Shown here one piece after another: positions 21,922-37,320 of a DNA stretch of 64,000 nucleotides (positions are counted from its first letter, which is position 1; each line of letters opens with the position of its first letter). This DNA is from Pezicula radicicola (Eukaryota; Ascomycota; Leotiomycetes; Helotiales; Dermateaceae), in the NCBI GenBank assembly GCA_003008705.1, contig PDUO01000031.1, forward strand, positions 434,001-498,000, written 5' to 3'. A program made the position numbers and the translations under genes. Under the pieces are notes generated by a model. The model was given only the letters and a program-made list of their open reading frames with translations, made no database searches and had not been told where the DNA came from.

Positions 21922-24332
21922 ATGACAATCAAATCTAATATCAAGTTTTCTCCAGAGTAAGAAACAAATATCCACTGCATCAAATTCGTCTTACTCATCA
22001 TATCCGTAGACTTCTCATCACAGCACCCCGTCGCTCCACTGTCGTCCCCTCTCCAGATGGAACGTATGCACTTTATACTGTTTCAACATATTCCCTAGAG
22101 TCTCACACAGAGGCCAAAGAAATCAAGACTGTAAATCTTAAGACCGATGAAACATTACTATTTTCCGATGATGAAAAGAATTATTCCCCGCGATGGCTGA
22201 TCGGGAACCAAGTCCTTTGGTTGAGAAAGGGAGATGTTGGAAAAACGGAACTTTGGATTGGGAATGCTGGGTCTGGTAATAAGAAGTAGGTATTCCTGGT
22301 TGCATTTAAAAATTAGTATGGTTTTGGGCTGATTTGAAGGTATATAGTTCATACCGAGCTGGAGAAATTGACGCTGCTGTTGATAGTGTCAAGACCAAAG
22401 AAGTAGCTGATGGTAATATAGCTCTCTGCTTTTCAGCATTGGTTAATGATGATGGACAACTTCATAATGCAGAGAAACAACCCAAGTCCTTGTCTTCTGC
22501 AAGGGAATATGAAACTATTAACGTTAGGCTATGGGATCGTTATTATACTAGAGAGCGACGTACTTTTTGGTATACGACTTTGGAGAAGGTCCCTGGTAGC
22601 GACAGGTATAAACTTTCCGGAAAAGGACTTGTGAATGCTCTAGAGAATACCGGTATTGAATTTTCTAGCGACCCATCGGAGGCTGGTAGCTTAGATGGTC
22701 ACATTGATCTGAGTGAGGATGGAGTACTTTTAGTTTCAAGAAATCCTGAAGTGGACCCGGCCAAAAGAATGTCGTTGGGGCTATGGTATCTCTCCATCTC
22801 ATCATACACGTCGCCACCGAAGAAAATCCAACGAATCAGAATTCCAGGTTTAGATGGTCTCTGCTCCGCACCATCATTCTCACACGATGGAAAGAAGGCA
22901 GTCTTCCTAAGTACAAAAACAGGATCCATTACGGATTTCAATCGTATTTTCGTGCTGCATTTCTTTGGGGCTGTTAAGGTTCTGCTCGAGGTTGTTCCCA
23001 TACGAGATGAGGAGAAGAGGGAAGGGTGGGATCTTTCTCCTAATTCGATATTATGGTCAAATGATGGGAATGAGCTTTATGTGACTGCTGAGGACAGAGC
23101 TAGAGTGAAGCTTTGGAAGATACCCATCAAAGATCCACTAAGATATCCCACTATTTCGACCCTATCTGTTGTTGCTACTGCGTTCTTAGGCGACGGCTCA
23201 GTAACATCTGTTCATCCCCTCAGCAAGGATCCATCCGAAAAGCGAATCTTGATCAACAAAACTAGTCTGGTCAATAACGGAACGTCCTACATCACAGATC
23301 CAAACACTAGTTCAGATACCTTCTTTCCGAGCATGGCGCTCAATGAGCTCTCCCTTGGTCTCAGCAGATCTCAAATCTCAGAAGTCACTTTTCAAGGGGA
23401 TGGAGATTATCAGGTTCAAGCATGGGTTCTTAAACCTTCTGATTTTGAGAAGAAGAAGAAATATCCTTTGGCTTTCCTCATTCATGGTGGTCCTAATGGC
23501 ACCTGGTCGGATTCTTGGTCAACAAGATGGAATCCTGCTGTTTGGGCTGAGCAGGGTTATGTCGTTATTTCACCTAATCCGTAAGTACTTCATTTCCCTA
23601 TCCATTTGTCTCATGCCATATATGATAATATTAACGCTTATACCTAGCACGGGATCAACTAGTTTCGGACAAGCCTTCGCTGGTGCAGTTCAAGGTCATT
23701 GGGGTGGACGTCCATATAGAGACCTAGTAAAATGTTTCGAATATATCGAAACAGAAATGCCATTCGTCGATACCTCGCGCGCAATTGCAGCAGGTGGTTC
23801 CTACGGCGGATACATGATAAACTGGATAGCAGGACAACCTCTCGCCACCAAATTCAAAACCCTAGTCAGCCACGACGGAATCTTCTCCATGACAAACCTC
23901 CTCTCTTGCGACATCCCCACCGCACTAGACCAATCCATGGGCACCCACCTCTGGGCACCCAACTCCTCATCATGGGCAAAATATAACCCAGCATCCTACA
24001 CCTCAAACTGGAAAACTCCCATGCTTTTCATTCATAGCGATACAGACTTCAGATGTCCAATTACTGAGGGTTTAGCTCCTTATAATGTTTGTAAGATGAA
24101 GGGTATTGAGGCTCGGTTCTTAAATTTTCCGGATGAGAATCATTTTGTGCTTAAGAGGGAGAATAGTTGGAAATGGTATAGGACTGTGCTTGGTTGGGCG
24201 AATAAACATGTTGGGAATGAGGGGGAGGGGGTAGTGGAATTGGAACCGCCTGTTTCGGAACCGAGGAGGAGAGGGAAGGAGGTTTGGAGGAGTGGAGGAG
24301 GGATTTGTGAGGAGCTGGTTTTGGGATTGTAG
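21922..24332 (+). CDS. Dipeptidyl-peptidase 5-like S9 family serine peptidase
   Basis: Prolyl-oligopeptidase-fold enzyme of about 742 aa. Four exons: 21922-21956, 22010-22285, 22348-23580 and 23648-24332; the total is in frame. An N-terminal beta-propeller with WD40-like blocks (LSPNSILWSNDGNELYVTAEDRARVKLW) precedes the alpha/beta-hydrolase domain. Active-site landmarks are GGSYGGYM (nucleophile Ser), HSDTDFRCP (Asp) and DENHFVL (His); the oxyanion-side motif FLIHGGPNGTWSD is also present. No signal peptide is seen (MTIKSNIKFSPE), so unlike secreted DPP5 this copy is probably intracellular, as in fungal acylaminoacyl-peptidase-like relatives. The last 40 residues are rich in Gly, Glu and Arg and lie beyond the catalytic domain. 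Intact. Confidence 0.9.
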
Positions 24333-35866: not shown

Positions 35867-35872
35867 AAAAAA
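35867..35872 (-). terminator. RNA polymerase III terminator of the tRNA-Met gene
   Basis: A run of six T (minus strand) begins 10 nt after the tRNA discriminator base. This is a sufficient Pol III stop signal in fungi. Confidence 0.75.
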
Positions 35873-35917
35873 GAAATCAACTGTCCTCGGTGAGACTCGA
35901 ACTCACGACCTTTGGAT

Positions 35918-35951
35918 GGCCCAAGTAGTGAACTACTTAATCATATGATAA
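35918..35951 (-). other. Canonical anticodon-loop intron of tRNA-Met
   Basis: This 34-nt intron sits one base 3' of the anticodon (between positions 37 and 38), the normal eukaryotic place. It contains atatga, which can pair with the anticodon region, as in most pre-tRNA introns. It should be removed by the tRNA splicing endonuclease. Confidence 0.8.
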
Positions 35952-35968
35952 TATGAGACCAACGCTCT

Positions 35969-36027
35969 CTGTAAAGTTTATTAGTCGTTGTTTTGGTTGA
36001 GGTTTTTTGTGAGGGGTAGTAACTTAC
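35969..36027 (-). other. Spliceosomal-intron-like insert in the tRNA-Met D-loop
   Basis: The 59-bp insert lies exactly between T20a and A21 of the D-loop. It starts GTAAGT, has a branch-site-like gactaataaac 14-24 nt before the end, and stops with CTTTACAG. Length and signals are the same as those of introns in the protein genes of this window. Precise removal restores AGTTGGTTA. The ends can also pair with each other (GTAAG with TTTAC), so cutting by the tRNA endonuclease cannot be excluded. Confidence 0.75.
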
Positions 36028-36049
36028 AACCAACTGAGCCACGAAGACT

Positions 36050-37320
36050 TGTATGTTTGTTGTGTTTGTTGGAAGATTTTTGGTTATTTGGTACTTTGGT
36101 TTGTGTGTTTTCTGTTGTGGAGGGGGTGTAGGTTGGTTGGTGGGGGACTAGTTGTGTTGGGTGTGGGGGTACTGTCCTTAGCGAGGTTTAGGGGGGGGGA
36201 GGGAGACTAGGGTGTTATTTGAATATTTTTGATTTGTTATTAGATACGAAAGTACCGTAGGAATTAATTGAGTTTTTAGGTTTGTTGGGTTAGTTTTGAG
36301 TTTGTTTGTGGTGTAGAAGTTTTCGAAAATTATTGTAGCTATATTAAGTACTATTAAATTTTAAATCTATTATTTAGATCTTTTAACAGCTAAACTCTAA
36401 GGTAGCCAGCTTAGACAGGTTTTAGTAATTTTGAAAGAGGTGTTCTAAAGTTATGAATTTTCGAGTTGTTCGTGGGGGTAAGGTGTGGAAATGGGGGAGG
36501 CTCACGCGATCTTCTGCCCGAGTCGTATAGCCCGCCAATAAGCTCTCTACATATAGCGCCCAGTCATCCTTCCAATAAATGCTTCCAATAAATGCACACT
36601 TTCTCACATACAGGCAAAGTATAATCGTTATTGCCTTAAATCCCTCAAATCGTGTCATATTCTGGATTTGGGGATGAATTATCTCCGAGAGACGGAAATA
36701 CGACATGATGGAGAACATCGTGGTTTTTGGTGTTGGATAAATGAAGGACTTTAGCTTATTTGTATTTAGAGATTATGGAATAGAAGCATCTCAACTGCTA
36801 TATCAGTCATTATTAGAGTTTCTATATTCCAGAATCAAATACAAATGAATACCTCAAACTCCTCACCAATCCTGGACTCCAAATATTCAGTTAACTAGGA
36901 ATTAATACCGCGGCTAATTTTTATTTCATTACTGAGCTACCGTCTGCATATAATATTATAGCGTGTCAAGATTTGGCTCAGTCTTTGAAAATCATGTAGA
37001 CAGTTGTGAGTCTCTCCTATGAAAAATGATCAACTATGAGAAACGGGTTGTAAGGTATTAGTATAGGGCATTTGCTGCTGAGGTGATTAGAATATGAGTT
37101 AATACCGGTACAATCCATTATTTCAGTGCGTGAGCGCCAGTATTGGTGTAGTAGTCGTAGCTAAAAAAAAAAGATAGACCAAATTATCAATGAGGTACTA
37201 CAACAGCAATTCTTGTATGTTTTACTTGACTAACCTACAATCGATCTGAGCCCTACAAATAATCAATCGATTCTTAAAATCTGTTCCCTCAGTAGTGCCA
37301 TATCTGACCGTCATTGGAGC
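36050..37320. other. Intergenic region between the tRNA gene and a decayed gene
   Basis: G/T-rich near 36060-36220, with a G-tract, then AT-rich. No supported gene. Confidence 0.5.

Follow-up and report, generated by a model that had tools for sequence, protein, structure and literature searches.

A predicted spliceosomal intron in the D-loop of fungal elongator tRNA-Met genes

The elongator tRNA-Met gene in a 64-kb stretch of fungal DNA (the window) is interrupted twice: by a canonical intron in the anticodon loop and by an insert in the D-loop that is very probably a spliceosomal GT-AG intron within a functional gene. Judged from sequence, the D-loop insert would be removed by the spliceosome and the anticodon intron by the tRNA splicing endonuclease. 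In the usual view, mRNA introns belong to one splicing machinery and tRNA introns to another. The window belongs to one contig (C77) of an assembly of 61 Mb in 152 contigs, the one genome covered by the analysis. Its DHR1 helicase has its best listed match in Coleophoma crateriformis (84%), followed by Phlyctema vagabunda (83%), and two further proteins have Phlyctema as their first listed match (72% and 56%); both species are Dermateaceae (Helotiales, Leotiomycetes), so a helotialean origin of the genome is most likely. The exon-intron junction of the tRNA gene has no match in viral and prokaryotic collections, as expected of a fungal gene.

The gene lies on the minus strand at 35882-36048 of the window, as do all of its parts, and contains an anticodon intron of 34 nt and a D-loop insert of 59 nt. 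Exon 1 (36028..36048, 21 nt), which is identical to that of two paralogues on contigs C25 and C65, comprises the 5′ strand of the acceptor stem, the 5′ strand of the D-stem and the first part of the D-loop, and the A box (36030-36041) is entirely inside it. The D-loop insert, a predicted spliceosomal intron, follows at 35969..36027 (59 nt) and reads GTAAGT...GACTAATA...TTTACAG; its predicted branch-point word, CTAAT (35980..35984), places the branch A 12 nt before the insert end, a spacing common to all four D-loop inserts found in the genome. Exon 2 (35952..35968, 17 nt) holds A21, the 3′ strand of the D-stem, the 5′ strand of the anticodon stem and the anticodon CAT. It is followed by the canonical anticodon-loop intron (35918..35951, 34 nt) and then by exon 3 (35882..35917, 36 nt), which supplies the 3′ strand of the anticodon stem, the variable loop, the T-arm with the B box (35894-35904), the 3′ strand of the acceptor stem and the discriminator A. 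A run of six T (35867..35872), 9 nt past the gene, is a predicted RNA polymerase III terminator, and the upstream stretch (36049..36072) ends in ACAAACATACAA, as it also does in the C25 and C65 copies. The D-loop insert leaves both promoter elements whole (A box in exon 1, B box in exon 3) and lengthens the spacing between them. When both inserts are cut out, the D-loop reads AGTTGGTTA and the product is a 74-nt tRNA that ARAGORN identifies as Met(CAT). The first-pass annotation had described a tRNA-Met gene with a GTAAGT insert in the D-loop and an anticodon intron, and every part of that description was confirmed in the sequence. Just upstream of the gene, positions 36080-36200 are strongly G/T-rich on the plus strand, by eye.

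Four elongator tRNA-Met genes were found across the genome, on four contigs (C25, C65, C77, which is the window copy, and C81), and each carries a D-loop insert (57, 56, 59 and 54 nt, respectively). An assembly artefact is excluded by these independent copies. Exact exon-1 and exon-3 words occur in C25, C65 and C77, the exons of which are identical, and C81 is a fourth elongator gene with diverged exons. The insertion point follows GGTT in C25, C65 and C77 and GGTTAG in C81, which is 2 nt further 3′; in tRNA numbering we take these points to be about 20a/21 and 22/23, respectively. Removing the C81 insert gives GGTTAGAGC again, the same D-arm sequence as in the other copies. The window gene and all three paralogues also have the anticodon intron, and in each of them this intron contains CATATGA, a word able to pair with the anticodon region. 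The elongator genes have the parts of an RNA polymerase III gene: A and B boxes are intact in all four, and the first run of at least four T comes 9 (C77), 5 (C65), 4 (C81) and 41 nt (C25) after the gene. None of the five initiator tRNA-Met genes found has an insert. A loose pattern of an A box plus GTANGT matched 44 places (53 in a reversed control), three of them the Met genes. One other match, at C81:280639 (L084), was set aside: by eye it is a tRNA-Val, with the word occurring by chance in the anticodon arm.

A second tRNA family is interrupted in a different place. Two genes for tRNA-Val(UAC), picked by eye from at least 57 Rfam tRNA hits, were found on C3 and C113. In addition to an anticodon intron, each has a variable-loop insert, 59 or 54 nt long. 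The insert follows GCAGTTGGT; its removal restores a variable loop of TGGTC, and ARAGORN then reports Val(tac) with an intron of 25 or 26 nt. The 3′-exon word of these genes occurs at seven places: it is exact in C3 and C113, and the other five share one identical word with two mismatches, which proved to be tRNA-Arg in the two of those five loci that were inspected. Matches to a spliced tRNA-Val query were confined to the two Val loci. The first run of at least four T lies 13 and 7 nt after the genes, and the spliced tRNA has, by eye, a T27-T43 mismatch. The anticodon introns of both Val genes (L102, L103) read GTA..CTCTAACGCAG with the next exon, which is reminiscent of a branch word and a 3′ splice site. 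Two other tRNA-like loci with inserts were noted. One (L104, G000:C109:672923-673077, minus strand; Ile-UAU or Gly-UCC by eye) carries roughly 82 nt of inserted sequence close to the anticodon, with an 11-bp perfect stem (AGTCGTTCTGA/TCAGAACGACT) and, by eye, no GT-AG signals. The other (L101, G000:C77:252794-252942, minus strand), possibly a pseudogene, has an ambiguous anticodon and about 75 nt inserted behind an anticodon loop that lacks T33, again with none of these signals by eye.

The inserts of the Met and Val genes share the signals of spliceosomal introns. First, all six (four Met, two Val) start with GT and end with AG. Second, their 5′ ends form an extended, GTAAGT-like splice site complementary to U1 (GTAAGT in five and GTAAGA in one). 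Third, each has a YTRAY word with the branch A 12 nt (Met, 4/4) or 13 nt (Val, 2/2) before the insert end. This spacing falls inside the range of 6-36 nt between branch and 3′ end that the available text of PMC5832005 gives for fungal introns. A segment of 54-59 nt that starts with GTAAG, ends with AG and has YTRAY 7-20 nt from its end was counted as passing a signal test. All six inserts pass, against 9 of 767,322 window segments (1.2e-5), although the six are not independent, because copies may share ancestry; the insertion points number three. Among 200,000 shuffles of an insert, 0 to 4 pass. The inserts can also be set beside four GT-AG introns of protein genes in the window that were placed with homologues. 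These are 53, 62, 67 and 47 nt long (the second, at 22286-22347, 62 nt, keeps the reading frame) and begin with GTAAGA, GTAGGT, GTAAGT and GTTTGT, in that order. YTRAY occurs 10-15 nt from the end in three of the four and is absent from the first (53 nt). The tRNA inserts, at 54-59 nt, fall within the 47-67 nt spanned by this small sample of four.

To compare what lies between the signals, insert interiors, trimmed of 6 bases at the start and 3 at the end, were aligned with one another and scored against 300 shuffles. For the six pairs of Met inserts, the score was reached by 22, 25, 106, 130, 201 and 237 of the 300 shuffles. The anticodon introns of C25, C65 and C77 are 80-91% identical and beat all 300 shuffles in each of the three pairs, and the anticodon intron of C81 has diverged from those of the other copies (17-62 of 300 shuffles reach the score). 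In C25, C65 and C77, then, the anticodon intron is conserved along its full length and the D-loop insert at its splice signals alone, which is the pattern expected of a spliceosomal intron. The argument from scrambled interiors fails for Val. Here the likeness of the two inserts goes past the signals, with 61% identity in the interiors and a score matched by 0 of 300 shuffles; the Val anticodon introns behave similarly (2 of 300). Recent duplication may explain this likeness.

The first-pass annotation had offered the spliceosome as one reading of the D-loop insert and a non-canonical endonuclease site as another. Under the latter, the D-loop and variable-loop inserts would be tRNA-type introns that the splicing endonuclease cuts outside the canonical position, as happens in archaea and red algae. 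There is some precedent, since non-canonical intron positions are known in other organisms, according to the portion of PMC4090602 available. A relaxed bulge-helix-bulge scan also put the inserts no lower than the anticodon introns, but the latter served as the positive control and failed: the score was reached by 64-297 of 300 shuffles for the inserts and by 98-285 of 300 for the anticodon introns. The earlier remark that the insert ends can pair holds for the window insert (GTAA with TTAC) and for that reason speaks for an endonuclease site, but such pairing is seen in one of the six tRNA inserts, so it is not general. Against an endonuclease stand also the interiors of the Met inserts, which lack the conservation seen in the anticodon introns of C25, C65 and C77, and the GTAAG, fixed-spacing branch word and AG common to all six inserts; the tRNA endonuclease is not known to require any of these. 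The endonuclease reading is weakened and appears quite unlikely. The spliceosome is strongly favoured: every elongator gene found has the insert, its signals retained and its interior diverged between copies, and an insert recurs at a different position in a second tRNA family.

A further possibility is that these genes are dead or dying, invaded by introns, and that an intact elongator tRNA-Met gene lies outside the assembly or was missed by the searches. An assembly of 152 contigs may indeed be incomplete, and the searches had a known reach. A spliced 74-nt tRNA-Met query of the genome returned exon pieces at C25, C65 and C77 and a cross-match to tRNA-Ile (84%), with no uninterrupted copy; it overlooked C81 and could therefore overlook an equally diverged intact gene. 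Pattern searches for intact copies allowed two or three mismatches. The anticodon-arm word, with up to two mismatches, occurs at 25 places, and among the 20 examined the four with A and B boxes are the four known genes. The first-pass annotation had proposed comparing elongator genes with and without the insert across the genome; this comparison gave four with it, and no uninterrupted copy was found. Its suggestion that the gene had been newly killed by the insertion fails on the same result and on the identical exons of three copies. Dead genes should also lose their splice signals, which are present in 4/4; every copy has A and B boxes and a T-run downstream, and the same pattern recurs in tRNA-Val. 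Among the loci searched, neither intact copies that could supply the function nor decay of the exons and promoter boxes of the four genes was found. Altogether, the proposal of dead genes is very improbable.

Decayed copies, the presence of which would suit that proposal, do occur at two other loci. The first, a fragment on C7 (L045:1490-1556), matches C25 minus its D-loop insert at 62 of 67 positions, and all five differences are C-to-T or G-to-A. Changes of this sort are the kind produced by repeat-induced point mutation. The D-loop insert is exactly absent from the fragment, which retains an anticodon intron of C25 type (96% identity to C25 over 55 nt, versus 86% to C77 and 84% to C65). Ten of the 13 bases before GCGTTGG fit the spliced form and six fit the unspliced form; when C-to-T and G-to-A changes are allowed, the D-loop part matches at 12 of 12 positions, as happens at 9 of 691,760 positions scanned, the site itself included. 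The fragment starts at the base right after homology to C94 and ends 6 bases before homology to C76, with repeat sequence abutting one side, and in these flanks 9 of 17 changes against C94 and 7 of 8 against C76 are of the repeat-induced type. It reads as a DNA copy of a precursor from which the D-loop insert had apparently been removed with the anticodon intron still in place; alternatively, it may descend from an uninterrupted allele. The second copy, on C91 (L100, G000:C91:27090-27340), is a decayed, rearranged tRNA-Met in which the 3′ part is well preserved; a long T-run follows it, and the copy is too rearranged to judge the insert.

Finally, it is very unlikely that the precursors come from RNA polymerase II and are spliced as ordinary capped transcripts from which the tRNA is released later: this would make access for the spliceosome easy, but the A and B boxes are intact and T-runs follow the genes, and such a transcript is not needed, because the excerpts of PMC10484740 describe U6 as an RNA polymerase III product and report that fission-yeast U6 carries an mRNA-type intron that is spliced. 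The genome analysed here has a U6 gene on C3 (L128, G000:C3:394300-394590) with two GT-AG inserts of 63 and 53 nt, located between CATTTG and GTCAA and between AGCATG and GCCCC, so another RNA polymerase III gene holds such introns in this fungus. A second U6 hit (C146:17702-17803) has no insert, and its 5′ part has diverged.

Splicing of the D-loop insert by the spliceosome would then proceed as follows. The tRNA-Met precursor would be transcribed by RNA polymerase III, as both promoter boxes, which are intact, and the T-runs after the genes suggest, and the D-loop intron would be recognised by the U1 and U2 snRNPs. Going by the C7 fragment, this intron might be removed ahead of the anticodon intron, which the tRNA splicing endonuclease would take out as usual. 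If so, the spliceosome would be obligatory, alongside the tRNA endonuclease, for every elongator tRNA-Met and tRNA-Val(UAC), and all internal Met codons would depend on it. Introns would also have been gained repeatedly in tRNA, and in small structured RNAs of the lineage generally, perhaps through reverse splicing and copying back into the genome. We consider this wider picture likely.

Genes of this kind can escape standard searches. On the 64-kb window, ARAGORN and Rfam reported no tRNA, and the Rfam tRNA hits for the whole genome, at least 57 from the 63 candidates scored out of 2516, include none of the four elongator genes. With introns allowed, ARAGORN returned nothing for the C25 and C65 precursors, Asn(att) with one 72-nt intron for C77 and Met with a 70-nt intron for C81; the Val precursors were called Glu and SeC. 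Removing the D-loop insert alone gave Met for C25, Leu for C65 and C77 (Leu(aag) in the latter) and Thr for C81, and removing both inserts gave Met in all four. Genomes that seemingly have no elongator tRNA-Met gene are worth re-examining. If the prediction is confirmed, a single tRNA would need both splicing systems and an essential tRNA would be wholly dependent on the spliceosome. Confirmation would also add tRNA to U6 and U3 as small structured RNAs that take in spliceosomal introns, and would make intron gain into non-coding RNA directly testable.

Interruptions of tRNA genes at positions other than 37/38, D-loop included, have been described before. Non-canonical tRNA introns occur in nucleomorphs, red algae and archaea, and the elongator tRNA-Met of Guillardia theta has three introns, the splicing mode of which is called unknown in the accessible parts of these sources (PMC4090602; PMC3978253). 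According to the consulted sections of PMC4090602, in which no word beginning with "spliceosom" occurs, a eukaryotic tRNA gene with a short D- or T-arm insertion is usually one among many synonymous genes, and such insertions are presumed to mark pseudogenes. No report of spliceosomal introns in tRNA genes was found in the literature searched, a partial body that leaves most subscription journals outside it. The inserts described here resemble the known non-canonical introns in where they lie, but the introns of archaea and Cyanidioschyzon are tied, in the text available on them, to bulge-helix-bulge sites (strict or relaxed) and to splicing endonucleases, whereas the present inserts begin with GT, end with AG and keep their branch word at a set distance. 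The canonical eukaryotic tRNA intron at 37/38 has its counterpart in the 34-nt intron of the window gene and its three paralogues; it differs from the D-loop insert in being conserved in sequence among C25, C65 and C77 and in having a word able to pair with the anticodon region, whereas the insert is conserved at its splice signals alone. Closer parallels in kind come from other small structured RNAs, among which U3 and U6 are the only ones known to be often interrupted by introns, according to the excerpted text of PMC5832005. Fungal U3 snoRNA introns are likewise spliceosomal introns in a small structured RNA, but their host is a snoRNA rather than a tRNA and has no anticodon intron. Like the predicted tRNA introns, fungal U6 introns are of the spliceosomal GT-AG type and interrupt a small structured RNA that RNA polymerase III transcribes; U6, however, is itself a component of the spliceosome, whereas the host here is a tRNA, on which a second, unrelated splicing system acts as well.
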